Positions 34,658 through 59,344 of a stretch of DNA of 64,000 nucleotides are shown here, one piece after another. The stretch comes from Streptosporangium becharense (lineage in GTDB: Bacteria; Actinomycetota; Actinomycetes; Streptosporangiales; Streptosporangiaceae): the NCBI RefSeq assembly GCF_014204985.1, contig NZ_JACHMP010000001.1, forward strand, positions 6,820,001 to 6,884,000, in the 5' to 3' direction. Positions within the stretch are counted from its first letter, which is position 1. Each line of letters begins with the position of its first letter. The position numbers and the translations under genes were made by a program. The notes beneath the pieces are model-generated. The model had not been told where the DNA came from, searched no databases, and saw only the letters and a list, made by a program, of their open reading frames with translations.

Positions 34658-35251
34658 TCAGAGGCCGGGGACCAGAGAGAGGAAGACGGGACGCCGCGGG
34701 GGAGGGCCGCGCCGGTGCAGCACATGGCGGAGCGCGGACAGCCGGGGAAGGCCCGGCCCGCCCTGGGAAGGGGGCAGCAGGGGTGCCCCGGCGGGGCACG
34801 GTTCGCCGAGGAGCACCGGGCCGAGCCGCGCGCCGAGGCGCCGCAGCAGGGACCAGAGCAGGGCTTCGCCCCGGGCGAGCCACAGGGCGGTCAACACCAC
34901 GGCCCAGCCGTGCATGGTCAGCATCGCGACGTCGGCCAGCAGGCCGGAGTGCGGATGTGCCGCGCCGGCGTGGCCCACCACCGGGCAGGTCACGGCGAAC
35001 AGCATGTGCAGGGCCGCCTGCCCGCCGCCGAGCAGCGAGAGGATCGTCCGCACGCCACGCTCGCGGCCGGTCACCGGAAGGGCGATCCCGAACGCCAGTG
35101 CCAGCCCGCCCGCCGCGCTCGCCGCCGTGACCGTGCCACCGGCGAACACGTGCGCGACCACTCCCAGCCCCGAGCACACCGCGGCGAACGCCGAGGCGCG
35201 GGCAAGGCGGAAGGACGACGTGACGAACATGATGCGGCAATCATCACACAT
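34658..35251 (-). CDS. histidine-rich polytopic membrane protein (copper locus)
   Basis: 197 residues from ATG 35251, which has GGAGGGG ten bases upstream; ATG 35230 is a second option. About four transmembrane segments lie in residues 14-125. Five histidines (34, 82, 99, 101, 114) align with those of the protein at 58796-59344, including an HPH motif; both share RGExxLWSLLR and a C-terminal LRHxxxRRGPP. No named family is recognised. Because it sits upstream of a copper chaperone, and its paralogue upstream of a YcnI copper-binding protein, membrane copper binding or transport is inferred. Confidence 0.72.
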   Translation of the reverse strand: MCDDCRIMFVTSSFRLARASAFAAVCSGLGVVAHVFAGGTVTAASAAGGLALAFGIALPVTGRERGVRTILSLLGGGQAALHMLFAVTCPVVGHAGAAHPHSGLLADVAMLTMHGWAVVLTALWLARGEALLWSLLRRLGARLGPVLLGEPCPAGAPLLPPSQGGPGLPRLSALRHVLHRRGPPPRRPVFLSLVPGL

Positions 35252-35380
35252 CGTGTGGTCGCCCCTCCCGCCGGAGTGTGATCAAGCTCCTCCGCGCGGG
35301 GGGCGGATCGTCCCGGTCTGCGTGGCGAACCGGCGCCATGGCGGGGTCGGCGGCGTGGCGGGGGCGGCGGCGTGCCGGGG

Positions 35381-36106
35381 TCAGCGGTGGCAGAGCAGGC
35401 AGTGCAGGGCGTGTTCCAGGGTCGCGACGTCGCCGGCCGGGGTGGGCCAGGGCAGGCGGACGAGCGTCGGGTCGTCGATGTCGCAGCGGATCGTCGCCCC
35501 GAAGCGGTCGAGCTCCCACAGCCAGGCGTCAGGCGCGGGAGCGGAGAGCAGGAAGCCCACCGCCCTCCTCAGTTGCTCACGGTGGGCGTTGTTGACGTGG
35601 TGCAGCATGCGCTCGGCCTCCCCCAGCAACGGGTCGGGGGCGGCGTCGAGATACTCCTCGGCGTCCAGGATGCCCGACTCGGTGGCGGTGATGTGAACCA
35701 CCTGGCCGATGTCGACGCGGAGGAGCCGGGCCCCGCCGGTGCTCTCCAGCGCGGTGAACAGGGCCTCGTCCGGGCACCGCTCCGCGATGGCCACCGCCGT
35801 CTCCCGCGCCTCGCGCTCCGGCACGGCCTGCAGCCATCCCTGCACCTTGAGCAGGCCCCGCGACAGTTCGCGCTCCCCCAGCAGGCGGTTCGAGGTGAGG
35901 TCGACGGTCACCACCGGCTCGTCCCGCATGTCGTACAGCGGCTCGTCCGGCAGCACGAGCAGCACCGGGCGGCCTGCGCCGTCCACGCCGCCCCTCGCCG
36001 GCATCGCGGGCCGGTCGGAACCGGCGAGCGAGACGTGGGTGGGGGCCGCCGCGGCGGCGAGCGTACGAACCCGCTCCGGGACGGGCGGGGCGACGACGGG
36101 CTGCAT
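35381..36106 (-). CDS. DUF2470 (HugZ-like) protein
   Basis: 241 residues. The N-terminal half resembles the split-barrel of flavin/heme-utilisation HugZ proteins (GRPVLLVLPDEPLYDMRDEPVVTVDLTSNR). The C-terminal DUF2470 region is clear (EAERMLHHVNNAHREQLRRAV, RCDIDDPTLVRLPWPTPA). HugZ-type proteins bind or degrade heme to release iron. An iron box lies just upstream (36144-36162), supporting iron repression. It ends with a cysteine pair (CLLC) of unknown use. It is divergent from rpsD. Confidence 0.8.
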   Translation of the reverse strand: MQPVVAPPVPERVRTLAAAAAPTHVSLAGSDRPAMPARGGVDGAGRPVLLVLPDEPLYDMRDEPVVTVDLTSNRLLGERELSRGLLKVQGWLQAVPEREARETAVAIAERCPDEALFTALESTGGARLLRVDIGQVVHITATESGILDAEEYLDAAPDPLLGEAERMLHHVNNAHREQLRRAVGFLLSAPAPDAWLWELDRFGATIRCDIDDPTLVRLPWPTPAGDVATLEHALHCLLCHR

Positions 36107-36143
36107 GAACCGGCTCTCCTTGAGATCGGACGTCTTCTACAGC

Positions 36144-36162
36144 TAAGGTAAGTCTTACCTAA
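36144..36162. promoter_or_regulatory. IdeR/DmdR-type iron box
   Basis: TAAGGTAAGTCTTACCTAA, 19 bp; the two 9-bp arms match at eight positions. It fits the actinobacterial iron box style TTAGGTTAGGCTAACCTAA. A second, weaker half-site (CTAAGGTAGACCTAA, from 36163) adjoins it. It lies between the DUF2470 gene (38 bp upstream of its start) and rpsD (32 bp before its start), so one repressor could control both. Confidence 0.85.
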
Positions 36163-36193
36163 CTAAGGTAGACCTAATCACACAGGAGTGATG

Positions 36194-36808
36194 ATGCGCT
36201 ACACCGGACCCAAGGTTCGGCTCTCTCGCCGGGCGGGCGTCCCGCTGACCCGCAAGGCCGTCCGCTACTTCGAGGAGCGGCCCTACCCGCCGGGCGAGCA
36301 CGGGCGCAAGACGAACCGCCGCCAGACCGGCGACTACGGGCTCCGGTTGATGGAGAAGCAGAAGCTGCGCTGGTACTACGACGTGTCCGAGCGCCAGATG
36401 GGCCGCTACTGGGACCTGGCGGTGCGCAGCAGCGGCCGTTCCGGCGCCGAGCTGGTGGTGCTGCTGGAGTCGAGGCTCGCCTCGCTCGTCCTGCGCGCCG
36501 GCCTGGCCCCGTCGATCTACGCGGCCCGCCAGTACGTCACCCACGGCCACATCACCGTGGACGGCCGGAAGGTCGACATCCCCAGCTACCTGGTCAAGCC
36601 CGGACAGGTCATCGCGGTGCGTGAGAAGTCGCGCCGCATGCAGCCGTTCGTCGCGGCCTCCGAAGGCGTCTACGCCGACGACCGGGTCGCCCCCTACATC
36701 GACGTCAACCACGGTGAGCTCCGGTTCACCCTGGTCAACCGCCCGCTGCGCGAGCAGGTCGTCGTCCCCGTGGACGAGCAGCTCGTGGTGGAGTTCTACT
36801 CCCGCTGA
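36194..36808 (+). CDS. rpsD: 30S ribosomal protein S4
   Basis: 204 residues. Of the tandem ATG codons, 36194 has AGGAG at the better distance. The S4 N-terminal domain (YFEERPYPPGEHGRK) and the S4 RNA-binding domain (LESRLASLVLRAGLAPSIYAARQYVTHGHITVDGRKVD) are clear. It binds 16S rRNA early in 30S assembly. It contains no cysteine, so it is the zinc-independent form, and it stands alone instead of beside rpsK and rpoA. A second copy elsewhere is possible. The iron box directly upstream is unusual for a ribosomal gene. Confidence 0.93.
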   Translation: MRYTGPKVRLSRRAGVPLTRKAVRYFEERPYPPGEHGRKTNRRQTGDYGLRLMEKQKLRWYYDVSERQMGRYWDLAVRSSGRSGAELVVLLESRLASLVLRAGLAPSIYAARQYVTHGHITVDGRKVDIPSYLVKPGQVIAVREKSRRMQPFVAASEGVYADDRVAPYIDVNHGELRFTLVNRPLREQVVVPVDEQLVVEFYSR

Positions 36809-36814
36809 GCCGTC

Positions 36815-37675
36815 CTACCGGCCCGCCGCCCGCCGGGCGGCGGGCCCGTTCTGCGTCGCGGGCCCGTTCCGTGCCGCGGGCCCGTTCTGCGCCGCGGGGA
36901 CCCGGTCGCGCAGCTCCCGCACCTCGGCCCGCAGCTCGGCCAGCTCGGCCAGGAGCACGGCCCCCAGCTCCTCGGTGGCATGCACGGACTCCTCGGCGTG
37001 CTCCTCCTCCATCGCGCTGACGACCACCGCGATGAACAGGTTCAGCACCACGAAGGTGCACACCAGCATGAAGAGCACGAAGAACACCCAGGCCCACGGG
37101 TGCCGGGTCATCACCTCGCGGGTGATGTCGGACCAGGCGTCACCGGTCATCATCTGGAACAGTGTGAACAGCGAGGTGGGCAGGTCCCCGAAGTACTTCG
37201 GCGCCGTCTCGTGGTAGAGCTTCGTGCCCATCACCGCCGCGACGTAGAGCACCAGGCTCAGCAACAGCACGATCGACGTCATCCCCGGTACGGCGGCGAG
37301 CAGGGCGGTGACCACCCTGCGCAGGCTCGGCACCACCGAGATCAGCCGCAGCGTCCGCAGGATCCGCAGGGTGCGCAGCACCGACAGGCCGCCCGCCGTG
37401 GGCAGCAGCGAGACCGTGACGATCGCGGTGTCGAACAGGTTCCACGGGTTGCGGAAGAACCGCCAGCCGTAGGCGTAGACCTTGGCGCACAGTTCGACGA
37501 CGAAGACGGCGAGCGCGAGGTGGTCGACGACCGTGAGCGCCGTTCCGTACCGTGCGACGGCCGTCGCCGAGGTCTCCAGCCCCAGCGTCACGGAGTTGAT
37601 CACGATGACGGCGATGATGAGGTGCTGGAAACGGGGGGTCTCCAGGGCGGCGCGAAGACGTTCGCGCACCGGCAC
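36815..37675 (-). CDS. bacterial voltage-gated cation channel (ion transporter)
   Basis: 286 residues with the six-transmembrane BacNav layout. The S4 voltage sensor has arginines every third residue (R101, R104, R107, R110; LRTLRILRTLR). The pore helix and filter are FQMMTGDAWSD, with T177, D179, W181 and D183. S6 ends LNLFIAVVVSAMEEE, followed by a charged helical tail with Leu heptads (LLAELAELRAEV), the usual tetramerising coiled coil, then an Asn-Gly-Pro-Ala repeat tail. Four subunits should form the channel. Asp at the filter positions suggests calcium permeability (see findings). The gene converges on rpsD, with 6 bp between stops. Confidence 0.9.
   Translation of the reverse strand: MPVRERLRAALETPRFQHLIIAVIVINSVTLGLETSATAVARYGTALTVVDHLALAVFVVELCAKVYAYGWRFFRNPWNLFDTAIVTVSLLPTAGGLSVLRTLRILRTLRLISVVPSLRRVVTALLAAVPGMTSIVLLLSLVLYVAAVMGTKLYHETAPKYFGDLPTSLFTLFQMMTGDAWSDITREVMTRHPWAWVFFVLFMLVCTFVVLNLFIAVVVSAMEEEHAEESVHATEELGAVLLAELAELRAEVRELRDRVPAAQNGPAARNGPATQNGPAARRAAGR
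36821..36845. terminator. hairpin within the 3' end of the channel gene
   Basis: GCCCGCCGCCCG (36821-36832) pairs with CGGGCGGCGGGC (36834-36845). It follows the rpsD stop by 12 bp and also encodes the last residues of the channel on the other strand, so it may serve as a shared terminator for the convergent pair. Confidence 0.55.
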
Positions 37676-37804
37676 GGGGGCTCCTGGGTGTCGGCGGCCG
37701 AGTACAGCGCCCGATCTTAACGGATGCCCGGAAAACAGGGCCTTGCGGTGATCGATCGGGAAGCCCGGACCGCTCGCTGCTCACCCCGCCCGGGTCACCC
37801 GGGT

Positions 37805-38455
37805 TCACCCAGGTGTGTCCTCCCGCCGGACGCGGTATCCCCCGATCCCCGATTCCAGCAGGTCGAAAGCGTGTTCGGCCTGCCGTCGCAGACGCGGGGT
37901 GATGGCGCCGACGATTTCGCCCGCGAGCATGTGCCGTACGGCCTCGCCGACCAGGGTCCGCAGGGTCGCGTCGATCTGCGCCGCCACGAGGGCGGGGGTG
38001 AGATCGTCGGGGTCGGCGTCCAGTTCCTCGGCGATGGCCTGGGCGAGTCTCCGCTCCCGGGCCTCGGCCATCTGCCGGGTCCGGGCGACCAGCGTCGGGC
38101 TGGCCTCGACCATCCGGATGAAGTCTCCGCCGCCCTCGTGGAAGCCGTAGCGGTGGTGGCCGGTGTCCAGGGCGTCCAGGAAGTCGCGGCGTACCGCCTG
38201 TAGCACGCTCTCGCCCGGCTTGCGGTCCCGCACCACCCGGGCCAGCGTGTCCTCGACCTCGGGTGCGCGGTCGAGGAGCAGATCCTCCTTGGTGGCGAAG
38301 TAGTTGAAGACCGTGTTGACCGAGACGTCGGCGACCCTGGCGACCTCCGCCACCGTCACGTTGTCGAACCCTCGGGCGAGGAACAGCCCCGTCGCGACGT
38401 CGGAGATGCGTCGCCGGGTCTCCCGCTTCTTACGCTCGCGCAGGCCCTCGCTCAT
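37805..38455 (-). CDS. TetR family transcriptional regulator
   Basis: 216 residues. The helix-turn-helix is at about residues 12-58 (RRRISDVATGLFLARGFDNVTVAEVARVADVSVNTVFNYFATKEDLL). The ligand domain is helical, with a His-rich GHHRYGFHEGGGDF loop. It is divergent from the two-gene ABC exporter at 38530 across 74 bp of AT-rich sequence and is its likely repressor, released by the exported drug or metabolite. Confidence 0.92.
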   Translation of the reverse strand: MSEGLRERKKRETRRRISDVATGLFLARGFDNVTVAEVARVADVSVNTVFNYFATKEDLLLDRAPEVEDTLARVVRDRKPGESVLQAVRRDFLDALDTGHHRYGFHEGGGDFIRMVEASPTLVARTRQMAEARERRLAQAIAEELDADPDDLTPALVAAQIDATLRTLVGEAVRHMLAGEIVGAITPRLRRQAEHAFDLLESGIGGYRVRREDTPG

Positions 38456-38478
38456 GGCCTCATTCTAGGTGCCGAGCA

Positions 38479-38518
38479 ATTTTTGATGTGACTCTAAAAA
38501 TAGTGTTAACCTAAAAAT
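38479..38518. promoter_or_regulatory. AT-rich boxes in the TetR/ABC divergent promoter
   Basis: Direct repeat CTAAAAAT at 38494-38501 and 38511-38518, with an imperfect inverted copy ATTTTTGA at 38479-38486. It lies in the 74-bp region between the divergent starts and is a reasonable TetR operator candidate. Confidence 0.45.
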
Positions 38519-38529
38519 GGAGGTGCACA

Positions 38530-39279
38530 ATGATCAAAGCATCGGCACTGAGCAAGACCTTCCCGGGTGGTGTCGAGGCCGTCAGGGGTGTCGACATGAC
38601 GGTGGAGAAGGGAGAGATCGTGGGATTCCTCGGCCCCAACGGGGCGGGGAAGACGACCACCATGCGGATGCTGACCACCCTGCTGACCCCCAGCGGGGGC
38701 AGTGCCACGGTCGCCGGGCACGACCTGATCACCGATCCGCGGAACGTACGACGACGGATCGGCTACGTCTCACAGGGCGGTGGAATCGGCCCGGCCAATC
38801 CGGTGGGGGAGGAGCTGGAACTGCACGCCATGTTGTACGGCATGCGTCAGGCCGAGGCGCGTGAGCGGGTCGCGGCGATCCTCGGCTCGCTCTCCCTGAC
38901 CGGCCTGGAGAACCGGCCCGGCGGTGCGCTCTCCGGAGGTCAGCGCCGCCGTTTCGACCTGGCCTTCGGGCTGGTCCACGGCCCGTCGCTGCTCTTCCTC
39001 GACGAGCCCACCACCGGTCTCGACCCGCGGAGTCGGGCCGACCTCTGGACGCACATCCGGAGGCTGCGCGACGAGGACGGCCTGACGGTCTTCCTGACCA
39101 CGCACTATCTCGACGAGGCGGACGCGCTGGCCGACCGCCTGCTCGTCATCGACCACGGCGTGATCGTCGCCGAGGGCACCCCGGCCGAGCTCAAGGGCGG
39201 CACCGGCACCCTCGACGACGCCTTCCTTTCCATCACCGGTCGCTCCCTGCGGGACGACGCCGAGAACGAGGGACGGTGA
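38530..39279 (+). CDS. ABC transporter ATP-binding protein, DrrA type
   Basis: 249 residues from ATG 38530 with GGAGG six bases upstream. Walker A GPNGAGKTTTMRML, signature LSGGQRRR, Walker B LLFLDEPTTGLD and H-loop LTTHYLDEAD are present, typical of drug or lipid exporters of the daunorubicin-resistance group. It powers the permease encoded next, which overlaps it by 4 bp. The divergent TetR gene suggests ligand-induced expression. Confidence 0.92.
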   Translation: MIKASALSKTFPGGVEAVRGVDMTVEKGEIVGFLGPNGAGKTTTMRMLTTLLTPSGGSATVAGHDLITDPRNVRRRIGYVSQGGGIGPANPVGEELELHAMLYGMRQAEARERVAAILGSLSLTGLENRPGGALSGGQRRRFDLAFGLVHGPSLLFLDEPTTGLDPRSRADLWTHIRRLRDEDGLTVFLTTHYLDEADALADRLLVIDHGVIVAEGTPAELKGGTGTLDDAFLSITGRSLRDDAENEGR

Positions 39280-40019
39280 ACGACCGGATGAACGTCATCC
39301 GCGACACCTGGTTGATCTTCCGGCACGACGTCCGGATCTCCCTGCGGCAGAGGGCGGGGATCGTCTTCGGCGTCCTGCAGCCGATGCTCTACCTGGTGCT
39401 GTTCGGCCCGCTGTTCGCCACCATCGGCACCTGGGAGACCCTGATCCCCGGACTGCTGATCCAGGTGGCACTGCTCAGCGCGGGCCTGGCCGGGTTCGGC
39501 ATCGTCTTCGACGCCAGGTCGGGGGTGCTGGAACGGCTGCGCGTCACCCCGGCGCGCCGGGTGGCCCTGCTGCTCGGCAGGGTGCTGGCCGGCTCCGTCG
39601 TCCTGCTGCTCCAGTCACTCGTGCTGGTCGCGGTGGGGTACGCCTTCGGCCTGCGGGCGGCGGTACCCGGCGTGCTGGTCGGGCTCGTCCTGATGATCCT
39701 GCTCGGTGTCGGCCTGGCGGCGCTGTCCAACGCGATCGCGCTCACCATGAACCCCGACGCGTTCGCCCCGGTCATGAGCACGGCGGTCATCCCGCTGATC
39801 CTGCTCTCCGGGGCCTTCCTGCCGATGTCCATGGCCCCGGGCTGGCTGGACGCGCTCTCCCTGGCCACCCCGTTCCGCCACGTGCTCGAAGCCCTGCGTG
39901 AGCTCTTCGCCGGACACTACGTCACCGGGACCGTCGCGACCGGCGCCGCGGTGTCCGTGGTCCTGGCGGTGGCCTGCGTCGTCGTGGGAACCCGCGTCTT
40001 CAACCGCGCGAACGCCTGA
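39276..40019 (+). CDS. ABC-2 type transporter permease, DrrB type
   Basis: 247 residues from GTG 39276, overlapping the ATPase stop (GTGA); ATG 39288 is also in frame. Six hydrophobic spans, with the ABC-2 signature region ERLRVTPARRVALLLGRVLAG and the second-half motif PLILLSGAFLPMSMAPGWL. It exports an unknown hydrophobic compound together with the ATPase. It converges on the small subtilase-linked gene. Confidence 0.92.
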   Translation: MNDRMNVIRDTWLIFRHDVRISLRQRAGIVFGVLQPMLYLVLFGPLFATIGTWETLIPGLLIQVALLSAGLAGFGIVFDARSGVLERLRVTPARRVALLLGRVLAGSVVLLLQSLVLVAVGYAFGLRAAVPGVLVGLVLMILLGVGLAALSNAIALTMNPDAFAPVMSTAVIPLILLSGAFLPMSMAPGWLDALSLATPFRHVLEALRELFAGHYVTGTVATGAAVSVVLAVACVVVGTRVFNRANA

Positions 40020-40283
40020 CACGCCGCGTTCCGGGGGTGCGTCCGTCCGCGGCGGGCCGTAGGGCTCGATCCCCGGGTCGGAGTGGACGCTCCCGTCCCC
40101 GTCCGCCTCCGCGCCGACGCGCCGGGCGGCGGTGTTGCTCACCCGCAGGACGTACAGGCCCAGGTCGGGATCGACGGACACCAGGCCGTAGGCGGTGTCG
40201 ACCTCGTCCTGGGCCAGGCCCAGGCGGCGCATCGCGTCGGCGAGTGTCGCCCGGGCCGGGAGTCGTACGCTGACCAGAAGCAT
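39615..40283 (-). CDS. small subtilase-linked protein, 3' end uncertain
   Basis: The first 80-85 residues look like a real gene: MLLVSVRLPARATLADAMRR, then YGLVSVDPDLGLYVLRVS and a DPGIEPYGPP end. The start lies 4 bp after the stop of the subtilase gene, so the two are probably cotranslated. The frame has no stop until 39615 and would run 222 residues, opposite the ABC permease gene. Those later residues (His/Arg/Gly-rich) look non-coding, so the stop was probably lost or shifted near 40020. A beta-alpha-beta pattern like a propeptide or inhibitor is possible. Coordinates give the open frame. Confidence 0.45.
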   Translation of the reverse strand: MLLVSVRLPARATLADAMRRLGLAQDEVDTAYGLVSVDPDLGLYVLRVSNTAARRVGAEADGDGSVHSDPGIEPYGPPRTDAPPERGVSGVRAVEDAGSHDDAGHRQDHGHRGAGRDGPGDVVSGEELTQGFEHVAERGGQGERVQPARGHGHRQEGPGEQDQRDDRRAHDRGERVGVHGERDRVGQRRQADTEQDHQDEPDQHAGYRRPQAEGVPHRDQHE

Positions 40284-40287
40284 GACC

Positions 40288-41646
40288 TCACGCTACGCGC
40301 CTGGCACGGCGGCGCAACGAGGCGATCAGGCCGCGCGTGTCGAGGACGCCGTACCCGTAGTCGTCGTCGAACCCGACGTCGCTGCGGTCGTCGGCGGTAC
40401 GGCGTAGCAGGGTGCGCAGCTGGGCGGGCGAGAGCCGGGAGGAGGGCCAGAGGGTGCGCACCGCCGCCACCACGCCGGCGGCGACCGGGCAGGCGGCCGA
40501 GGTGCCCGAGTCGGGCTCGCCGTCACCGAAGGCCCCGGAGCCCGCGAAGTGGGTGTAGCAGCAGAGGTCGGGCTTGCGGGCGGTCAGGCGGCCCGGCCCC
40601 TGGGAGGAGTAGCCGACCCGGTCGCCGCGGACGTCGACGCCGCCGACCGAGAGGGCGTCCGGGTGGGAGTTGGCGCCCGCGATCGGCCGGTCCGGGTAGG
40701 CGCACCGGCCGTCGCGGCACTCGCGACCGCAGTTGCCGGCGGCGAACAGCACGTCGGCGCCGGCCCGGTCGAGGCTGGAGATGATCAGGTTGAACGGGTG
40801 GGCCGGGTTGTCGGAGTAGTTGCCCGGGTGGCCGACGGGGAAGTCCCAGAGCGGGGAGAAGGAGCCCCAGCTGTTGCTGATCACCAGGGAGCGTGATCCG
40901 GCGGGCTGCCCCTCCAGGACGGTGCGCAGGTGGGCGAAGGCGGCGATGGCGTCCGACAGCAGGCCGTCGAGGGCCGAACCGCCCGGCCGCCGGGAGAGCA
41001 GCACCGGGACGTCGATCAACGAGGCGCGCGGGGCGGCGATCAGCGCGTCGAAGGCGCACATCGTGCCGTGGTCGACGGTGAACTCGCCCGGCCCGCCGTT
41101 CACCCCCGCCGGACTCCAGCTCCGCCCCGCGTCGAGGCTCACCTCGCGGTCGAGCCGCCGGGTGACGTGCCGCGCGTTGATGCCGGTGTCGAGCACGGCG
41201 ACGGCGACGCCCGAGCCGTCCAGGCCCTCCTCGGCCAGCTCGGCGACCCGCAGCAGCCGCTCCACGTCGTGCCAGTCGCCCACCGGGGGGTCGCCGCCGC
41301 AGGTGAGGTTCGGCCCGATCACCGGGTCGGCGAAGACCCCCACGACGTCGGGACGGAACGCCGGCAGCAGGCTGACCCGGGTGGAGATCTCGTCGTCGGA
41401 GATCTCCCCGCGGACCAGCACCGAGGCGTCCCCCGCGGCCATGGAGAACGTCAGCGGCTGGTGCAGGGAGAGGGGGTCGCCCCCGCCGCCGGGCACGGGC
41501 CTGGGCACGACGACCGGAGCGAACGAGGGGTCGAGGACGACCCCGGGAAGCGTGTCGGCCACGTCGGCCGCCGCGGTGGTGACCGCGGGGTCGGCCACGG
41601 CGGCGACGACGTCGGGTGAGGGGCGGAGCTGGAGCAGGACTCGCAT
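40288..41646 (-). CDS. S8 family serine peptidase (subtilase) without signal peptide
   Basis: 452 residues from ATG 41646 (MRVLLQLRPS). The catalytic triad is D153 in VAVLDTGIN, H193 in VDHGTMCA and S383 in DSGTSAACPV, with oxyanion N305 in AAGNCG. Four cysteines cluster at 306-315 and 362-363. The first 120 residues form an N-terminal domain without hydrophobic signal sequence, so the enzyme is probably cytoplasmic. Intracellular subtilases act in regulated proteolysis. The adjacent small gene may encode a regulator. It is divergent from the membrane spermidine-synthase-like gene at 41818. Confidence 0.88.
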   Translation of the reverse strand: MRVLLQLRPSPDVVAAVADPAVTTAAADVADTLPGVVLDPSFAPVVVPRPVPGGGGDPLSLHQPLTFSMAAGDASVLVRGEISDDEISTRVSLLPAFRPDVVGVFADPVIGPNLTCGGDPPVGDWHDVERLLRVAELAEEGLDGSGVAVAVLDTGINARHVTRRLDREVSLDAGRSWSPAGVNGGPGEFTVDHGTMCAFDALIAAPRASLIDVPVLLSRRPGGSALDGLLSDAIAAFAHLRTVLEGQPAGSRSLVISNSWGSFSPLWDFPVGHPGNYSDNPAHPFNLIISSLDRAGADVLFAAGNCGRECRDGRCAYPDRPIAGANSHPDALSVGGVDVRGDRVGYSSQGPGRLTARKPDLCCYTHFAGSGAFGDGEPDSGTSAACPVAAGVVAAVRTLWPSSRLSPAQLRTLLRRTADDRSDVGFDDDYGYGVLDTRGLIASLRRRARRVA

Positions 41647-41817
41647 GGTGCACCACCGGCGGTGAGGGGGAGCCAACCTCACCACATTCCTGCATTGCCG
41701 CTGATCACGCCACCGGTCGAATCCATCTCCAATCGGGACGCATAACTCGCAGAATCCACAAATCGCGGGCGTGGATTTCCTTCCCTGGGGGAATGCCGGT
41801 CACTAGCGTTGGAGGGC

Positions 41818-43863: not shown

Positions 43864-43986
43864 GCGGCTCCGGCGGCCGGGCGGTGCCGGTACACCCCGC
43901 CTGGTGGTCGCGATGGTTGCGATACCCCGGTCGCCCTCGGCCGTCTCCGGTGGTCCGGTGGTCCGGATGGCCCGGGTGGAAAAGCG

Positions 43987-44029: not shown

Positions 44030-44041
44030 ATGTGTCCCGGG

Positions 44042-48761: not shown

Positions 48762-48775
48762 CCCGGAGACCGGCC

Positions 48776-50455: not shown

Positions 50456-50571
50456 CGGTCTCCTCGGGGGGTACGGCTCGTGGGGAGCCGGGAAGGCGTG
50501 TCCCGGTGACCACCGGGGCTGCCAGGATCACACAGATCACCCCGGCCCGGCGGGACGGCGCCGGCGCGAGG

Positions 50572-51213
50572 TCAGGAAGGAGGCGGACCGGGCAGGCCCG
50601 CGGCGCGGTGGAGCGTCCGGTGCAGCCAGCCGCGGAACCGCCGCAGCATCTCGGGGTCGTCGGCGCCGTGGCGCCTGTCGTCCGCGCCGAGCACCCCGCC
50701 GAGCATGAAGCCGTGCACGCACCAGATCATCGCCGCGAACAGCAGGTCCAGGTCCGCGTCTGGGGCGATGTGCCCGGCGGACACCGCGGGTCCGACGGCG
50801 TCGCCGCCCATTTCGAGCAGCGGCCGGACGTAGTCGCGTTCCACGGAGGTGAGGTCGCTGGCGTCGGAGAGCCACCGGTGCAGCCAGAGCGCGGGCACCT
50901 CGGGCCAGGCGAGGCAGAAGTCGATGTAGTGGTCGACGATCCGGTGCACCATCAGCGCCGTCTGCTCCGGAGTCGCCGCGGACCCTCCCCGCAGTGCCGC
51001 CTCCAGCGACGCCCGCTCCGCCAGGTAGGCGCGTTCCATCACCGCCAGGTACAGCTCCCGCCGGCTGCCGAACTCCTCCCGCAGGGCGTCGGCGCTCAGC
51101 CCGGTCGCCTCGACGATCTGACTGGTGGTCGTCGCGTCGTACCCCAGCGCGGCGAACAGCCGGGTCGCGACCCGGAGTATCGTCTCGCGCCGGTCGCCGT
51201 CGCCGGAAGTCAT
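50572..51213 (-). CDS. TetR family transcriptional regulator
   Basis: 213 residues from ATG 51213. The helix-turn-helix (ETILRVATRLFAALGYDATTTSQIVEATGLSADALREEFGSRREL) is followed by a helical ligand domain rich in Trp, Leu and Ala (HYIDFCLAWPEVPALWLHRWLSD). It lies downstream of, and unlinked to, the histidine kinase gene on the same strand and upstream of the PLP decarboxylase gene. Target and ligand unknown. Confidence 0.9.
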   Translation of the reverse strand: MTSGDGDRRETILRVATRLFAALGYDATTTSQIVEATGLSADALREEFGSRRELYLAVMERAYLAERASLEAALRGGSAATPEQTALMVHRIVDHYIDFCLAWPEVPALWLHRWLSDASDLTSVERDYVRPLLEMGGDAVGPAVSAGHIAPDADLDLLFAAMIWCVHGFMLGGVLGADDRRHGADDPEMLRRFRGWLHRTLHRAAGLPGPPPS

Positions 51214-51272
51214 GACTGCGACGTTAGGGGGGGCCGGAGTGCCCGGCCAAGCACCTGATTGACAAAGAGCGG

Positions 51273-52769: not shown

Positions 52770-53433
52770 CGCCGGCCAGCCGGTAGCCCGCTCCCCGCAC
52801 CGTCTGCAGCGCGTTCCGGGAGAACGGCACGTCGATCTTGCGGCGCAGGTAGCCGACGTACACCTCGACCACGTTGGGGTCGGTGTCGAAGGTGTCCCAG
52901 ACGTGCTCCAGGATCTCCGACTTGGAGACCACCTCGTCGGGGTGGCGGAGCAGGTACTCCAGCAGGGAGAACTCCCTCGGGGTCAGCTCCACCGGCGTCT
53001 GGCCCCTGCTCACCCGCCGCCGCGCCGGGTCGAGCGCCAGGTCTCCGGCCCGCAGCACGGCCGGTCGCCGGTTCGCGCCGCGCCGCAGCAGCGCCCGCAG
53101 TCTGGCCACCAGCACGACGTAGGAGAACGGTTTGGTCAGGTAGTCGTCCGCACCCAGGTCGAGCCCGTCGGCCATGTCGTACTCGCCGTCCTTGGCCGAC
53201 AGCATCAGGATCGGCACCCAGTTCTCCTCGGCGCGCAACTGCTTGCACACGTTGTAGCCGGAGATCCTGGGCAGCATGATGTCCAGGACCACCACGTCGT
53301 ACTCACCGTGGCGGGCCTGGTGCAGGCCGTCCTCCCCGTCGTGCGCGAGGTCGACGGCGAACCCCTCGGCCTGCAACCCGCGCTGGAGGGCCGCGGCCAT
53401 CCGCCGTTCGTCCTCCACGACGAGAACTCGCAT
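52759..53433 (-). CDS. OmpR/PhoB-type response regulator
   Basis: 224 residues from ATG 53433. Receiver: acidic E7-D8-E9, phosphorylated Asp51 in VVLDIMLP, Ser79 and Lys101 in DDYLTKPF. The winged-helix output domain follows (VELTPREFSLLEYLLRHPDEVVSKSEILEHVWD, VGYLRRKID, TVRGAGYRL). It partners the kinase encoded next. The divergent LolA-like gene starts at 53602, so the 168-bp region between is the likely shared promoter. Confidence 0.94.
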   Translation of the reverse strand: MRVLVVEDERRMAAALQRGLQAEGFAVDLAHDGEDGLHQARHGEYDVVVLDIMLPRISGYNVCKQLRAEENWVPILMLSAKDGEYDMADGLDLGADDYLTKPFSYVVLVARLRALLRRGANRRPAVLRAGDLALDPARRRVSRGQTPVELTPREFSLLEYLLRHPDEVVSKSEILEHVWDTFDTDPNVVEVYVGYLRRKIDVPFSRNALQTVRGAGYRLAGDGG

Positions 53434-53601
53434 CCCCACCCCTTCCCCGTCGGCGATCTCGTTCCCGGCATTCTCGACCGGCCGGCCTGAGAGCCGGCTG
53501 AGAACCCTGTGAGCCCTCTCAGTCTGTCTCAGCTTCGGCACAGGAACGGTCACGCAGTCTGACGGTCGACAGTGATCGACGACATACCGTGGAGCAGTGA
53601 G

Positions 53602-54843
53602 ATGTCACAGGAGAAGAGACGGGGCCGCATGGTGAGGTGGGCCGTGCCGGTCGCCGCGTTCGCGGTGGTCGCCGGGGCGGTCGGCGCGGGGCCGGTCATC
53701 GCCGCCGTCCAGGGGGACCCCGCGCTGCCGGAGCGCACCGCCGAGCAGTTGCTGGCCGACGCCGCCCGCGCCGCCCAGTCCGGGGTGAGGCCCATGTCGG
53801 GCACGGTCATGCAGACCGCATCCCTGGGCCTGCCGGGGCTTCCGGAGCTGCCGGGCGGCACGGGCGGCGCCTCGCCCGCCACGCTCCTGGCGGGCTCCCA
53901 CGAGCTCAAGGTCTGGTACGGCGGGCAGGGCAGGATCCGCCTGGCGCTGCCCGGCCGGATGAGCGAGACCGACCTGATCGTCAACGGCGACCAGGTGTGG
54001 CTGTGGGAGAGCGGGGCCAACACGGCCACCCGGGTCAAGGTCGACGCGGGCGCCCACGCCGACGCCCACCCCGGGAGCCGCGGCGGGCCCGGACCCGAGG
54101 AGACCCTGCCGGCGACCACGCCGCAGCAACTGGCGCGGAAGGTGCTCCAGGCGGCCGAGGCCGACACCGTGGTCGGCGTGACCAACGCCGAGCGGGTCGC
54201 CGACCGCCCGGCATACCAGCTCACCCTCGCACCCAAGGACGCGTCGTCGCTGGTCAAGGAGGTCAGGCTGGCCCTCGACGGCGAGACCCTCGTCCCGCTG
54301 CGGGTCCAGGTCTACGCCAGGAGCGCGACCGAGCCCGCCTTCGAGGTCGGCTTCACCTCCGTCACGTTCTCCCCGCCCGCCGCCGGCAACTTCGCCTTCA
54401 CCCCGCCCGCGGGCGCCAAGGTGGAGGAGAAGCCGCTCGCCGGTTTCTTCGAGGAGCGCGGGATCGGCCACGGTGACGGCGCGGGCCCCGGGCCGGCCGG
54501 GGCGGGACGGCCCGGGGACGGGGTCGAGGACGGAGATCTCAGGGACGGGTCCCGCAAGGGCGGCGTCAAGACCGTCGGCGACGGCTGGACCACGGTCGCG
54601 GTGCTCCCCGTCTCCGGACAGGACCTCAAGGGCGGTGCCCCGGAGAACGGCCGGCCGGCCGGCGAGGACGCCGGTGCGCTCGTCGAGAGCGTCCTGAAGT
54701 CCGCCAGGCAGGTCAGCGGCCCCTGGGGCAGCGGCAGGGTCATCCAGACCAAGCTGGTGTCGGCGTTGCTGACCGACGACGGCCGCCTGCTGGTCGGCGC
54801 GGTCACCCCGGAGAAGCTGACCGAGGCCGCCGGTCAGAAGTGA
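53602..54843 (+). CDS. secreted LolA-like (LppX/RseB-fold) protein
   Basis: 413 residues; ATG 53602 is chosen with GGAG seven bases upstream. An N-terminal signal or membrane anchor (about residues 12-35, RWAVPVAAFAVVAGAVGAG) precedes a LolA-type half-barrel: SGTVMQTASLGLPGLP, ELKVWYGGQGRIRLALPG, DLIVNGDQVWLWESGANTATRV, and the PAYQLTLAPKDASSLVKEVRLALD strand. A Gly-rich loop and a second beta segment follow. LolA folds carry lipids or lipoproteins; monoderms use them for envelope lipids or sensing. It is followed by an ABC ATPase and permease and is divergent from the two-component genes. Confidence 0.82.
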   Translation: MSQEKRRGRMVRWAVPVAAFAVVAGAVGAGPVIAAVQGDPALPERTAEQLLADAARAAQSGVRPMSGTVMQTASLGLPGLPELPGGTGGASPATLLAGSHELKVWYGGQGRIRLALPGRMSETDLIVNGDQVWLWESGANTATRVKVDAGAHADAHPGSRGGPGPEETLPATTPQQLARKVLQAAEADTVVGVTNAERVADRPAYQLTLAPKDASSLVKEVRLALDGETLVPLRVQVYARSATEPAFEVGFTSVTFSPPAAGNFAFTPPAGAKVEEKPLAGFFEERGIGHGDGAGPGPAGAGRPGDGVEDGDLRDGSRKGGVKTVGDGWTTVAVLPVSGQDLKGGAPENGRPAGEDAGALVESVLKSARQVSGPWGSGRVIQTKLVSALLTDDGRLLVGAVTPEKLTEAAGQK

Positions 54844-55060
54844 GCCGGACGCCGGGAGGGCCCGCGACGGTGCCCTCCCGGCCCTCCCGGACCGCCCCGC
54901 CTTCCCGCCCGCGCGGGCCCGCCCCCGGGGCCGGGACACCCCGCCCGGGGACGGAGGCGTCGATGAACATGATGAGCCGACGAGCAGTGGGAGAGACGTG
55001 CCGATCGCCCAGAACACCAGGACCGGTGAGGTCCCGGACGACGGACCGGGAGGGGGAGCC

Positions 55061-56038
55061 GTGCTGACCGCCGAGAGACCGATGACAGGCAGGACCGGCG
55101 CCGATGAGGACCTCTCGATCGTCACCGACGGCCTGACCAAACGATTCGCGGGCGGCCAGGTGGCCGTGGACGCCCTCGACCTGGCCGTGCCCGCCGGAGC
55201 CGTCTTCGGCTTCCTCGGCCCCAACGGCTCAGGCAAGACCACGACCATACGCATGCTGCTCGGCCTGGTCACGCCCACCTCGGGCACCTGCCGGGTGCTC
55301 GGCACGCCGATGCCCGGCGGGGCCGGCACCGTGCTGTCGAAGGTGGGAGCCCTGGTCGAGGGGCCCGCCTTCTACCCCTACCTGTCGGGTGAGGCGAACC
55401 TGCGCCGCTATGACGCGGCCGACCGGTCGGCTGACCCGCGCACCGCCTCGGCCAGGATCGGGCTCGCCCTGGAACGGGTGGGGCTGTCCGCTGCGGCCCG
55501 CAAGCGCTACCGGGCGTACTCACTGGGCATGCGCCAGCGGCTGGCCATCGCCGCGGCGCTGCTCGTCCCGAGGCAACTGCTGATCCTCGACGAGCCGACC
55601 AACGGCCTGGATCCGCAGGGCACCCGCGAGGTGCGGGCCCTGGTCAAGGAGATCGCCGCCGACGGGACGACCGTGTTCGTCTCCTCCCACCTGCTGGCCG
55701 AGGTGGAGCAGATGTGCTCACACGTCGCCGTCATGCGGGCCGGCCTGCTGGTCGCCCAGGGGCCCATCGCCGACCTCCGGGCCGCGGAGGCGGTCAGGAT
55801 CCGGGTGGAGACCCCCGACACCGCCGAGGCCGTGGCGGTGCTCGCCGGCCTCGGCCTGCCGGAGATCCGCGTCGGTGACGGCGAGGTCGGCGCGGGCCTG
55901 GCCACCGAGGCCCCGGAAAGGATCTGCGCCGCCCTGGTCACCGGAGGCGTCGCCGTCCGCGGCCTGGCGGTGCAGCGGCCGAGCCTCGAGGACGTGTTCG
56001 TCGGGTTGACCGGGGAGGGCTTCGATGTCGACGGTTAG
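55061..56038 (+). CDS. ABC transporter ATP-binding protein
   Basis: 325 residues from GTG 55061, which has the strongest ribosome site (GGGAGGGGGAG); GTG 54998 and ATG 55082 are in frame. Walker A GPNGSGKTTTIRML, a YLSGEANLRRY stretch, degenerate signature SLGMRQRLAIA, Walker B LLILDEPTNGLD and H-loop VSSHLLAEVEQM are present. This is the BcrA/CcmA-like export group, often for peptides, lantibiotics or lipids. The C-terminal 90 residues are the usual extension. It follows the LolA-like gene and overlaps the permease gene by 14 bp. Confidence 0.92.
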   Translation: MLTAERPMTGRTGADEDLSIVTDGLTKRFAGGQVAVDALDLAVPAGAVFGFLGPNGSGKTTTIRMLLGLVTPTSGTCRVLGTPMPGGAGTVLSKVGALVEGPAFYPYLSGEANLRRYDAADRSADPRTASARIGLALERVGLSAAARKRYRAYSLGMRQRLAIAAALLVPRQLLILDEPTNGLDPQGTREVRALVKEIAADGTTVFVSSHLLAEVEQMCSHVAVMRAGLLVAQGPIADLRAAEAVRIRVETPDTAEAVAVLAGLGLPEIRVGDGEVGAGLATEAPERICAALVTGGVAVRGLAVQRPSLEDVFVGLTGEGFDVDG

Positions 56039-56966
56039 CGGAAGACAGACGCCGATGGTCGGCGGGAGAGAAGCCCTGTCCACCGGGAACAGCGTCGGGA
56101 ACACCGCTGGGAACACCGTCGGGAACACCGTGCCCGCCGTCCGGGCATGGCTGCGGCTGCTCGGCTCGGAGGCGGGCCTGACCTTCCGGCGGCCCAGGAA
56201 CGCCGCGATGCTGGGCCTCCTCGTGGTGATCCCGGTGCTGGTCGGCGTCGCGCTGCGGGTGTTCGGCAGCCCCGAGGAGAGCGGGCCCGGCAGGGGGACG
56301 GCGATCCTGCAGCAGGTCACCGGGAACGGGCTGTTCCTGACCTTCGCCGCGCTCTCGATCCTCGTGCAGTTGCTGCTGCCGGTCGTCGTCGCGGTGGTCG
56401 CGGGTGACTCCGTCGCCGGAGAGGCGGGCCTGGGCACCCTGCGTTACCTGCTCGCGGTGCCCGCGGGCCGGACCCGCCTGCTGGCCGTCAAATATGTCAA
56501 CGCGGTCGTCTTCTGCCTGGCCGCCGTCACCGCGGTGGCGCTCTCCGGGCTCCTGACCGGCCTGGTGCTCTTCCCCGCGGGCCCGATCACCCTGCTGTCG
56601 GGCGTCACGGTTCCCTTCGCCGAGGGCGTGCTGCGCATCGGCGTCGTCGTCCTCTACGTCACCGCGGGGATGGCGGCTCTGGCGGCCGTCGCACTGGCCC
56701 TGTCGACGTTCACCGAGGTCTCCATCGGCGCCATCGCCTCGACCGTGGTCGTCGTCATCGTGGCGCAGGTCCTCGGTGCCATCCCGCAGCTCGCCGCGAT
56801 CCAGCCCTACCTGCTCACCACCTGGTGGAGCCACTTCGACGGGGTTCTGCGTGCCCCGGTCGCCGTCGACGAGATGGCGGACGGCCTGCTGGTCTTCGGC
56901 GCCTACGTCGTCGTCTTCGGATCCGTCGCCTGGGCCCGGTTCACCGGCAAGGACATCACCTCCTGA
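56025..56966 (+). CDS. ABC-2 family permease
   Basis: 313 residues. A disordered start with four GNT/SV repeats (about residues 21-36) precedes six membrane spans: FRRPRNAAMLGLLVVIPVLVGV, the large loop GSPEESGPGRG, GDSVAGEAGLGTLRYLLAVPAGRTRLL (the ABC-2 motif), and later hydrophobic segments. It is the membrane partner of the ATPase at 55061, overlapping it by 14 bp, and works with the LolA-like protein encoded before them. The substrate is unknown; an envelope lipid or peptide is a reasonable guess. Confidence 0.9.
   Translation: MSTVSGRQTPMVGGREALSTGNSVGNTAGNTVGNTVPAVRAWLRLLGSEAGLTFRRPRNAAMLGLLVVIPVLVGVALRVFGSPEESGPGRGTAILQQVTGNGLFLTFAALSILVQLLLPVVVAVVAGDSVAGEAGLGTLRYLLAVPAGRTRLLAVKYVNAVVFCLAAVTAVALSGLLTGLVLFPAGPITLLSGVTVPFAEGVLRIGVVVLYVTAGMAALAAVALALSTFTEVSIGAIASTVVVVIVAQVLGAIPQLAAIQPYLLTTWWSHFDGVLRAPVAVDEMADGLLVFGAYVVVFGSVAWARFTGKDITS
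56085..56132 (+). repeat. four 12-bp tandem repeats in the permease gene
   Basis: GGGAACASCGYC-type units at 56085, 56097, 56109 and 56121, encoding Gly-Asn-Thr-Val repeats ahead of the first membrane span. Confidence 0.85.
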
Positions 56967-57077
56967 GCCGCCGTCGCATTCGGGCCGCCGCGGCCCGCAA
57001 GCGCCTCTTCAGGTGTAATAGCAGGTCAGGGCGGGTAAGCGTGCTCTCGACCGTGACACGGGCCCGGGGGGAGAGCC

Positions 57078-57344
57078 ATGAGCGAGCGACTCGGGGACGA
57101 GGGGGAGCGGCCCGTCGAGCGCGGGGGCGGCGAGGAGGCGAGCGGCACACCGCTGACGCCCGCCGAGGAGAAGAACTCACTGCGCCCCGCAGGCGTCACG
57201 CCCGGCGCCACTCCCAGCTCCGCTCCCGGCGTCACCCCCGGTTCCGTTGCCGGTGACGACCGGGGCGACGACACCGGGGCGGACGAGGTGAGCGACGAGG
57301 TCTACGAACGGACCAAGGAGCTCAACCCCGACGACTTCGAGTGA
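57078..57344 (+). CDS. small acidic disordered protein
   Basis: 88 residues of low complexity: Glu/Gly-rich start, a Thr-Pro-Gly centre with repeated GVTPG, and an acidic end (EVYERTKELNPDDFE). No membrane span or catalytic motif. A GGGGGGAG site precedes the ATG. The conserved-looking C-terminal NPDDFE end suggests a real gene; function unknown. Confidence 0.55.
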   Translation: MSERLGDEGERPVERGGGEEASGTPLTPAEEKNSLRPAGVTPGATPSSAPGVTPGSVAGDDRGDDTGADEVSDEVYERTKELNPDDFE

Positions 57345-57413
57345 CGGGACCCGCCCCGGACCGTCTCCGGCCACCACGGGTCCCGCCCGCGCCGCGGGCT
57401 CACCCGGTCGCGC

Positions 57414-57617
57414 TCACCCGTCTCCCTGGTTGAGACGCTCGCTCCTGCCCTGGAGCTCGTCGATCAGCTTGGACGCCTCGGCCTTGCTGAGCCCCTCCGG
57501 AACGTCACGCCCGGCCTCCCTGGCGAGTGTGCGCAGGTACGACTCCTGGGGTGCGGTCATCGGCTCGTCCCCCGTCGCCCACTCCTCGGGATCCTTCTCC
57601 ACCGGTCCTCGGTCCAT
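57414..57617 (-). CDS. DUF3072-type small protein
   Basis: 67 residues from ATG 57617 with AGGGGAG upstream. Diagnostic stretch: MTAPQESYLRTLAREAGRDVP followed by LSKAEASKLIDELQ. DUF3072 proteins are small actinobacterial and proteobacterial proteins with a SAP-like helix-turn pattern and unknown function. A longer upstream frame was rejected as Arg-rich noise. Confidence 0.82.
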   Translation of the reverse strand: MDRGPVEKDPEEWATGDEPMTAPQESYLRTLAREAGRDVPEGLSKAEASKLIDELQGRSERLNQGDG

Positions 57618-57844
57618 GATGCTCCCCTTTCGAACTTCCGTTCGCCCTACCCGGTGAATCCGCGCTGTATTCCTCCGCTGCCCGAGCGGGCGGGCGTCCA
57701 CCCGGGCTTCCTGCGGAGGTGGTTCCCGGTCTGCCCGCCGGTGGCGCTCTTGGAGCGGGTCCGGCGGGCGGCGACGCCGTCGCGGGTGACCGTCGTGGTT
57801 CCGGCTCCGCGGCGGCACCCGCCCGCTTCGCGGTGCCCAGCGGG

Positions 57845-58594
57845 TCAGGAGGCGGAGGACCGGCCGCCGCGGCGCAGGCCGAACACGCCGAGCGCGGTCC
57901 CGACGAGCCCCACCGCCAGACCGGCGCCGCCCAGCAGGCGGGCGGTGCCGTCCGAGGCGTCCGCCGCGTTCGCGGCGGCGGGAACCGCGGAGACCGACGG
58001 GGCCGTGGTGGCGGGCGCCGTGGTGGTGGCCGCGCCGTGGCCCTCACCCGACGCCGTGGCGGGGGTGAGCCTGAGCACCGGGGCCGGGCGCTCGGGTTCC
58101 GAGCCGTCGGCCCTGGGCTCGTCGGCCCACTTGACGACCTCGCCGCCGCTGTAGGTCTGGGTGGCGGGGAAGACGAGGTGGTCGGTGTCGGTGGGCAGCA
58201 TCCCCAGTGACACCTCGAACTCCTGGAACTGGCCGGGTTCGATCCTGCCTCCCGACCAGGTGATCTTCGTGACGGCCTCGGTGATCTCCCCGTACTCGGT
58301 CTTGACCGGCTTGGGGAGCTTGCCCTCGACCACCTTGATCTTCCAGCCCGGCACCGGTTTGACCGAGACGAAGGCCAGCGGGTGGTCCAGGGGGAGGGCG
58401 ACCTCCAGTTTGGTGGTCGAGGCGTCGTCCCGCTCGTTCGGCACGCGGAAGGCGACCTTGGAGAAGCCTCCCTGCTCGGCGCTCGCGGGGTTGACGGTCA
58501 CGTGCGCGAGGGCGGGCAGCGCGAGACCCACGGTGAGGGCTGCGGCACCGGCGGTGACAACCGCCAGACCGCGGCAGGCACGCGAAAACGACAT
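57845..58594 (-). CDS. YcnI/DUF1775 copper-binding membrane-anchored protein
   Basis: 249 residues from ATG 58594. The signal peptide ends ALPALA, so the mature protein begins with His (HVTVNPASAEQGG), the YcnI N-terminal histidine that binds Cu(II). The beta domain runs to about residue 170 (VAFRVPNERDDASTTKLEVALP, VPGWKIKVVEGKLPKP, ITWSGGRIEPGQFQEFEV). A Thr/Ala linker and one C-terminal transmembrane helix with basic stop (GLRRGGR) anchor it outside the cell. The neighbouring membrane protein (58796) is the paralogue of the one in the PCu(A)C locus. Confidence 0.88.
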   Translation of the reverse strand: MSFSRACRGLAVVTAGAAALTVGLALPALAHVTVNPASAEQGGFSKVAFRVPNERDDASTTKLEVALPLDHPLAFVSVKPVPGWKIKVVEGKLPKPVKTEYGEITEAVTKITWSGGRIEPGQFQEFEVSLGMLPTDTDHLVFPATQTYSGGEVVKWADEPRADGSEPERPAPVLRLTPATASGEGHGAATTTAPATTAPSVSAVPAAANAADASDGTARLLGGAGLAVGLVGTALGVFGLRRGGRSSAS

Positions 58595-58612
58595 GGGGTT
58601 CTCCACTTCGGT

Positions 58613-58644
58613 ACGTCGGTACGTTGATACGTCGGGACGTCGTG
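58613..58644. repeat. 8-bp tandem ACGT repeats in a copper-locus spacer
   Basis: ACGTCGGT, ACGTTGAT, ACGTCGGG and ACGTCGTG in tandem, just upstream of the YcnI start. It may be a regulatory array; otherwise the 201-bp gap 58595-58795 shows nothing. Confidence 0.5.
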
Positions 58645-58795
58645 AGGCCAGAATGCCGGGATATCGGCACGTCATCGGGCCGACAGGCCGGACGCCGAGA
58701 TCTTCGGCCGGCGGATCGGAACGCCGGAGACAGATTGGGGTGCCGGAATGGGGCAGGACGTCAGAAACGGCCCAGGACGCCGGGAACGGGACAGG

Positions 58796-59344
58796 TCAGG
58801 CGGTGCGGAGTGGAGGGCCGCGCCGGCTGACGGAGTGCCGCAGGACCGTGCCCGCCGGAAGCGGCGCCGAGGCCGGGCGGAGCACGGACGGGGCGGGTGC
58901 GGACGGGGGCCGCGGCGGCGACAGCACCGCCAGCAGCCGGCGTCCCGCCGAACGGAGCAGCGACCACAGCGCGTCCTCGCCCCGTGACAGCCACCAGCCG
59001 GTGATCAGAGTCGCGGTGAGGTGCGCGGCGAGCATGCCCACGCTCTCGCCCAGCCCTTTGACGTGCGGGTGCGGGGCCAGGGACGTGCCCGCCGGATCGC
59101 CGAGCGCGAACAGTTCGTGCAGCAGCAACTGCAGGGCTGACAGGCCGGTGCTGATCGTCGCCGTGGAGCGCTCGCGTCCGGCGAGCAGCACGGCCGCCGC
59201 GGCCACCGCCGACCCGCCGATGGCCACCGCCCACGGCACCGGCCCGGAGCCTCCCGCGGCCGTGTGGCCGAGGACGGCGAGCGCCACGCAGACGGCCGAG
59301 AAGACGGCCGCCCGCACGAGGCGTAGCGGGAGGCGGGCACGCAT
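58796..59344 (-). CDS. histidine-rich polytopic membrane protein, second copy
   Basis: 182 residues, about four membrane segments. It aligns with the 34658-35251 protein: RLxRAxxFxAVC near the start, GRERxxxxI, QxxLHxLFA, the HPH motif, ML..H, RGExxLWSLLR and C-terminal LRHSVSRRGPP. Histidines at 27, 76, 92, 94 and 108 match those of the other copy. It lies 201 bp upstream of the YcnI gene on the same strand. Family not recognised; a copper role is inferred from two separate copper contexts. Confidence 0.7.
   Translation of the reverse strand: MRARLPLRLVRAAVFSAVCVALAVLGHTAAGGSGPVPWAVAIGGSAVAAAAVLLAGRERSTATISTGLSALQLLLHELFALGDPAGTSLAPHPHVKGLGESVGMLAAHLTATLITGWWLSRGEDALWSLLRSAGRRLLAVLSPPRPPSAPAPSVLRPASAPLPAGTVLRHSVSRRGPPLRTA

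Follow-up and report, generated by a model that had tools for sequence, protein, structure and literature searches.

What does a small histidine-rich membrane protein do when its gene stands, at two separate places in one genome, directly before a gene for a secreted copper protein? The question is raised by a stretch of 64,000 nucleotides of Streptosporangium becharense (NZ_JACHMP010000001.1, positions 6,820,001-6,884,000, forward strand; host genome 7.8 Mb), which as a whole is called the window here. In actinomycetes, development, respiration and the radical-copper enzymes depend on copper that is delivered outside the cytoplasm; to our knowledge, both the membrane step and the sensing step of this delivery are poorly known. 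Our work demonstrates that the two proteins belong to a real family that has no name in the libraries searched and that is tied to genes for extracytoplasmic copper proteins. The genes concerned are arranged in two loci:

34658-35230, minus strand: family member 1, histidine-rich, 190 amino acids from the ATG at 35230; the open reading frame (ORF) is open to 35251; four transmembrane (TM) helices predicted by homology with member 2
33781-34383, minus strand: PCu(A)C, secreted copper chaperone; ORF open to the GTG at 34437, the ATG at 34383 after GAAAGG being the likelier start
32393-33763, minus strand: Dyp-type peroxidase, the next gene after PCu(A)C (Pfam/NCBIfam scan)
58796-59344, minus strand: family member 2, histidine-rich, 182 amino acids, four predicted TM helices (ORF, BLASTP, AlphaFold2 model)
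57845-58594, minus strand: YcnI/DUF1775 protein with a hydrophobic C-terminal stretch; ORF open to 58675, the ATG at 58594 being the likelier start

Members 1 and 2 are identical at 75 of 176 aligned positions (43%, E 6e-26 in a single BLASTP comparison). In the numbering of the 182-residue copy (member 2), which is used throughout, H27, H76, H92, H94 and H108 are aligned in both proteins, with H92 and H94 forming an HPH motif, and so is the tail histidine of the C-terminal LRHxxxRRGPP, which the two members have in common together with RGExxLWSLLR. The sequence-only reading of the window had described just this, two paralogous histidine-rich membrane proteins with five aligned histidines and both motifs, and all of it was seen again. 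Both ORFs are present at the coordinates it had given, and they lie on the minus strand; the first gene, however, probably starts at the ATG at 35230 and not at 35251. It had also reported that a copper protein gene follows each member on the same strand, and in Pfam the gene 3' of member 1 indeed matches PCuAC (PF04314, E 1.2e-34) and that 3' of member 2 DUF1775 (PF07987, E 4.9e-53). From the stop codon of the member to the likely ATG of the partner there are 274 bp at the PCu(A)C locus and 201 bp at the YcnI locus, in line with the 200-275 bp that had been given, and the short tandem repeats reported for the spacers are three in number; all of them are probably incidental, since the length of the spacer differs among relatives:

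34531-34572, no strand: tandem repeat of 11 bp, 3.8 copies, in the PCu(A)C spacer
58608-58642, no strand: tandem repeat of 8 bp, 4.4 copies, in the YcnI spacer
58745-58795, no strand: tandem repeat of 19 bp, 2.7 copies, in the YcnI spacer

At E 0.001, the host genome contains a single PF07987 gene and a single PF04314 gene, and two of its three clear family members directly precede these sole genes. This pairing is more than chance. The third member sits 5' of a PepSY_TM gene.

Is this arrangement peculiar to S. becharense? We surveyed the neighbours of all 134 family matches in 54 genomes of 45 genera, using nine partner profiles on all ORFs and recording the nearest codirectional partner within 3 kb downstream. 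A partner was found downstream on the same strand for 122 of the 134 matches, as compared to 11 of the 134 on the upstream side; this direction control addresses the partial circularity that comes with profiles built from clusters adjoining the family. The nearest downstream partner was YcnI in 29 cases, CopC in 26, PCuAC in 22, PepSY_TM in 22, an extracytoplasmic function (ECF) sigma factor in 17, SCO1 in five and DsbA in one. The proposal made from the sequence alone, a membrane copper-handling partner of two chaperones, stands with respect to the genomic association, which is in fact wider and comprises seven classes of nearest partner; copper handling itself is what we infer. Seen from the other side, 29 of the 38 DUF1775 matches (a 39th row, being the latter part of a match that is split in genome G002, was left out) and 29 of the 55 PCuAC matches are directly preceded by a codirectional member at no more than 1.5 kb; the association with YcnI and PCu(A)C genes holds in the tabulation of neighbours that had been asked for earlier. 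In this comparison, 63 of the 134 members have no DUF1775 or PCuAC match within 5 kb. In the profile count, loci whose neighbourhood was not retrieved were examined, in both directions, for YcnI and PCuAC alone. Grouped by Pfam, the large downstream clusters comprise CopC, PepSY_TM, ECF sigma, SCO1 and DsbA-like thioredoxins besides YcnI, PCu(A)C and DyP.

A larger profile count yielded 185 of 198 loci with a downstream partner versus 23, 13 and 13 in three control directions; it includes 20 loci that had been chosen by PCuAC, and 122 of 134 is thus the figure to use. With called genes, a gene for CopC, YcnI, PCuAC, SCO1 or CopD was next downstream for 69 of 160 members versus 2 of 172 member-adjacent genes, 2 of 937 farther genes and 26 of 191 partner genes. 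In the called-gene tally, 32 of 161 copies had no partner, some of them through failure of gene calling, and the profile matches on all ORFs were used instead. Concerning the other flank, 81 of 161 copies have an upstream neighbour of opposite orientation; the neighbour is codirectional and at least 100 bp away in 54 and codirectional but closer in 24, and in two it is off the stretch. From the strand and the spacing of the neighbours, the member is likely to be the first gene of its transcript for most copies. Two further arrangements were noticed. In converging modules, a member followed by YcnI faces, on the other strand, a member followed by PCu(A)C and DyP (L042, L046, L120 and L123, the latter being the same place as L038; L120 and L123 are from Microbispora). 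Two genomes of the taxonomic family of the window show the order member, cytochrome P450, CopC, CopD-type protein (L051, L178).

Both window members have a distinctive sequence at their start codons:

35228-35248, minus strand: start-codon element TGTGATGAT-N9-ATG of member 1, one of two matches in the window
59342-59362, minus strand: start-codon element TGAGAGCAT-N9-ATG of member 2, the other match

In the upstream sequences of the family, the element has the general form TGnGAnnAT and usually lies 9 bp 5' of the start codon. It was present in 68 of 175 member upstreams versus none of 1295 other genes, a lenient control as their starts were called mechanically, and versus 41 of 20000 random windows. 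When the set was widened and close relatives were counted too, 122 of 269 distinct member upstreams carried it. The starts of the two members are its sole matches in the window, where 0.24 are expected and only 2 of 100 shuffled versions contain as many. In the 7.8-Mb genome, the exact pattern has 15 matches, as compared to nine for the reversed pattern, and most of the 15 may be due to chance, but the starts of both window members are among them. The third family copy of the host genome lacks the exact element, and the exact form is mostly missing from the CopC (2 of 31), PepSY (4 of 28) and DsbA (0 of 5) classes. The element looks like the extended -10 region of a leaderless transcript, and no -35 region stood out upstream of it among the member upstream sequences. 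A general leaderless promoter is not favoured as an explanation, with none of the 1295 other genes carrying the element and the two members being the only matches in the window. The seven codons that precede the ATG at 35230 correspond to the element, and member 1 therefore probably starts there and not at 35251; likewise, codons resembling 'CDD' recur before the start of some relatives because the element is read there as coding sequence.

That the family has no known name, as had been supposed, agrees with the library scans: no Pfam or NCBIfam model fits either of the window proteins, and 24 diverse members searched against Pfam at E 1 returned only DUF3792 (two), DUF998 (one) and Acyl-CoA_dh_C (one), with a best E of 0.14. 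The open-licence literature that was searched gave no published name either. At E 1e-5, a draw of 200 genomes from the order contained 190 with members (single-sequence query), a draw of 394 from the class 216 and a draw of 396 from the phylum 24, all 24 belonging to the class Actinomycetes; single-protein queries found no relative in viral contigs and no match in plasmids. One genome (G063) has 13 family matches, which include tandem or divergent pairs as well as copies next to genes for ABC transporters (L181, L194, L212). On a FastTree phylogeny, which contains several long branches, the partner labels are clustered (41 changes versus 102.9 after shuffling). Of the two window copies, the one before PCuAC falls among other PCuAC copies, and the one before YcnI has no firm placement.

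An alignment of 157 members, from which four of 161 rows with short domains had been dropped, shows how far the single residues are conserved. Conservation of the histidines, which the sequence-only reading had made a point to be checked, is complete for H27 and H108 (157 of 157 each), nearly so for H76 (153) and less pronounced for the loop columns H92 (140) and H94 (119), the last two being minimum counts. Also well conserved are Q72 (152), M104 (142) and C19 (129), and the R-G-P-P of the tail is nearly invariant (R175 155, G176 143, P177 156, P178 157). An AlphaFold2 model based on 46 sequences has four helices (residues 5-29, 37-54, 61-82 and 97-141) and a mean predicted local distance difference test score (pLDDT) of 75.4. 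Per protein, lysine plus arginine amount to 2.32 at the N-terminus, 0.16 in loop 1, 2.10 in loop 2, 0.49 in loop 3 and 3.54 after helix 4, and histidine makes up 9.2% of loop 3 versus 1.3% of the C-terminal tail. Since this charge pattern fits both ends being cytoplasmic and the histidine-rich loop being outside, we predict a protein of four TM helices with both ends inside and the histidines facing outward.

The family differs from the CopC-CopD fusion YcnJ of Bacillus, whose ycnKJI operon likewise pairs YcnI with a membrane protein: it has four predicted helices, and neither by sequence nor by profile is it related to CopD-type proteins. A comparison of the members with 10 CopD-type proteins (PF05425) by hhalign gave a probability of 0.3%, so that the CopD/YcnJ importer model is not matched, and a sequence profile searched against solved structures gave a best E of 1.1. 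Kinship with the partner families was also considered and rejected, as hhalign of the 157 members against the CopD, PepSY, CopC, YcnI, PCuAC, Sco, DsbA, sigma and DyP clusters gave probabilities of at most 1.8%. As for the partner itself, YcnI of Bacillus binds Cu(II), according to an excerpt of PMC8424229.

The most regular gene order was found in one genus (g62), which we take to be Streptomyces: around the best PCu(A)C match, all 16 genomes have the order member, YcnI, Sco, PCu(A)C, a long CopC-domain protein, which from its length appears to be CopCD-like, and DyP. This order equals that of the published sco operon SCO3966-3963 (Sco, ECuC/PCu(A)C, CopCD, DtpA), with the member at the position of SCO3968 and YcnI at that of SCO3967. 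In the portion of PMC3603459 concerned, the S. coelicolor genes upstream of Sco (3966) are called 'hypothetical membrane protein' (3967) and 'integral membrane protein' (3968). Judged by gene position, the family member would probably be SCO3968 and YcnI SCO3967. This probable correspondence goes beyond the sequence-only reading, as do the start-codon element and the ECF sigma, CopC, PepSY_TM and SCO1 partners. In the window, by contrast, these genes are distributed over two loci, and each locus has a member of its own. For S. lividans, sections of PMC4736821 describe the operon as Sco, ECuC, a putative Cu transporter and DtpA, and state that copper rescues the mutants of ecuc, sco and dtpA, the transporter mutant SLI_4212 having looked like the parent; in an extract of PMC4743123, the tag SLI4215 is used for the xylanase repressor XlnR, a use that is hard to square with the gene numbers of the sco operon. 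Another four PCu(A)C matches of g62 were examined and differ from the order given above: three of them (L321, L322 and L324) are followed by a member and then by an ECF sigma gene, and the fourth (L323) has no member. The members of the former three are among the copies with long outer loops rich in methionine and histidine.

How could such a protein act? The most economical mechanism, to which we give a little less than an even chance, is a copper site in the membrane, with copper being exchanged between it and the secreted chaperone whose gene comes next. The four TM helices, with both ends in the cytoplasm, would bring together His27 of helix 1, Gln72 and His76 of helix 3 and Met104 and His108 of helix 4 in a copper site that would lie in the membrane's outer half. 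The outer loop, rich in histidine or in methionine and histidine, would exchange copper with the YcnI, PCu(A)C, CopC or Sco protein encoded next, and the conserved cytoplasmic tail LRHxVxRRGPP may dock an inner partner or acceptor. The three paralogues of the host genome would then divide the work, PCu(A)C and DyP falling to one, YcnI to another and a PepSY_TM protein to the third. The function as a whole, and with it copper binding, the direct contact with the chaperone, the direction of transfer and the role of the tail, is what we infer from several lines of evidence: the partners lie downstream rather than upstream, their order is kept in g62, the histidine, glutamine and methionine residues are conserved, the outer loop is rich in histidine, the partner labels cluster on the tree, and a position as first gene is plausible.

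Several observations weigh against such a membrane copper site. First, the structural model is uncertain: its predicted template modelling score (pTM) is only 0.53, and with this model Foldseek returned 17 matches against the PDB at E 10 and none at E 0.001. Second, the coupling to copper chaperones is incomplete. Twelve of the 134 matches have no partner found (nine have none, and for three the neighbourhood was not retrieved), the nearest partners PepSY_TM, ECF sigma and DsbA are not copper chaperones, and 9 of the 38 DUF1775 and 26 of the 55 PCuAC matches lack a member directly upstream. Third, the SCO1 class shows no clear clustering on the tree (49 of 500 shuffles were as low), and H76 is lost in three of four members of the DsbA class (L257, L262 and L154 being among the loci), as if the function had changed in this subgroup. 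Finally, the inferred Streptomyces operon already contains a CopCD-like protein, the usual candidate importer.

The alternative that survives best, which we regard as unlikely but by no means negligible, is that the protein is a copper sensor: the outer histidine site would read the extracytoplasmic copper and the cytoplasmic tail would control expression, in some lineages by holding the adjacent SigC-like ECF sigma factor, so that each locus would consist of a sensor and the copper tools that are needed. Ligands on the outer side of the membrane and an inner tail that hardly varies suit this role, and the sigma gene is the nearest downstream partner for 17 of the 134 matches. By eye, 30 aligned sigma genes look like a single ECF subgroup, and for the five that were scanned the two best NCBIfam models were SigC and its sister PRK12535 with 160-196 bits, which is below the curated cut-offs, the next model reaching at most 95 bits. 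According to parts of PMC7924339, SigC counters copper starvation in Mycobacterium tuberculosis and no anti-SigC factor is known; there, the sensing of copper deficiency and the missing anti-SigC factor are listed as open questions. Similarly, the sigma-C regulon of C. glutamicum is activated upon copper deprivation, as stated in an excerpt of PMC7337898. The family would resemble membrane anti-sigma factors, which are also encoded beside ECF sigma genes, but this holds for part of the family only, since 117 of the 134 matches have another nearest partner or none, and scans with Pfam and NCBIfam recognised no anti-sigma domain in the members. The tail, moreover, is much alike with and without a sigma partner. 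S. becharense itself has three members but no sigma gene beside any of them and no close homologue of the SigC-like sigma factor of locus L186 (best identity 39% over part of the protein). A core copper gene follows further downstream in the same direction in only 3 of 29 sigma-first copies, and one is present within 5 kb on either strand in 12 of the 29. Among the genomes listed in the phylum draw, the family is missing from eight of nine genomes of a genus (g48) that we guess to be possibly Mycobacterium, and in the relevant portion of a review, M. tuberculosis SigC (ECF36) is given conformational control without an anti-sigma factor (PMC8999054). We consider it less probable still that a specific form of the sensor applies, in which a four-helix protein would sense the copper status by its histidine site, hold a SigC-type (ECF36) sigma factor by its RRGPP tail when copper is sufficient, release it upon starvation, and would have been copied before each copper-acquisition module.

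Another possibility is a membrane anchor or assembly factor that localises or folds secreted metalloproteins, the histidines being structural or serving only to buffer copper. The diversity of the secreted partners, which include DsbA-like and SCO1 proteins, is in good agreement with this idea; but conserved histidine, methionine and glutamine residues in the membrane and loops rich in methionine and histidine exceed the needs of an anchor, and the YcnI protein of the window has, by eye, a hydrophobic C-terminal stretch of its own, so that we rate such a role as improbable. Least probable of all is a membrane protein of haem or redox type, which would bind haem b by its three histidines in the membrane and pass on electrons for the reduction of Cu(II) or Fe(III): conserved histidines on three helices and neighbours such as DyP, P450 and PepSY_TM speak for it, but most of the partners belong to families that bind copper, histidine and methionine abound in the outer loop, and no cytochrome model or fold matches.

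The surroundings of the two loci contain further features. A DUF2470 protein is encoded just 5' of member 1 on the same strand (35381-36106, minus strand), followed by a homologue of ribosomal protein S4 (PF00163, PF01479; 36188-36808, plus strand) whose translation contains no cysteine and which we take to be a zinc-independent S4 paralogue, and by a one-domain ion-transport channel protein (PF00520; 36815-37675, minus strand) that to our eye resembles bacterial voltage-gated sodium channels. At the other locus, a 24-bp tandem repeat of 4.4 copies with 91% matches (59401-59506) lies between a decarboxylase gene (PF02784/PF00278) and the start element of member 2.

A single family is thus encoded upstream of most of the surveyed genes for extracytoplasmic copper delivery, and partly beside SigC-like sigma genes, which makes it a single candidate for both the membrane step and the sensing step of this process. 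Its involvement would assign a role to a neglected gene that precedes a well-studied operon of Streptomyces, and the family may be a missing part of copper transfer or of copper sensing.

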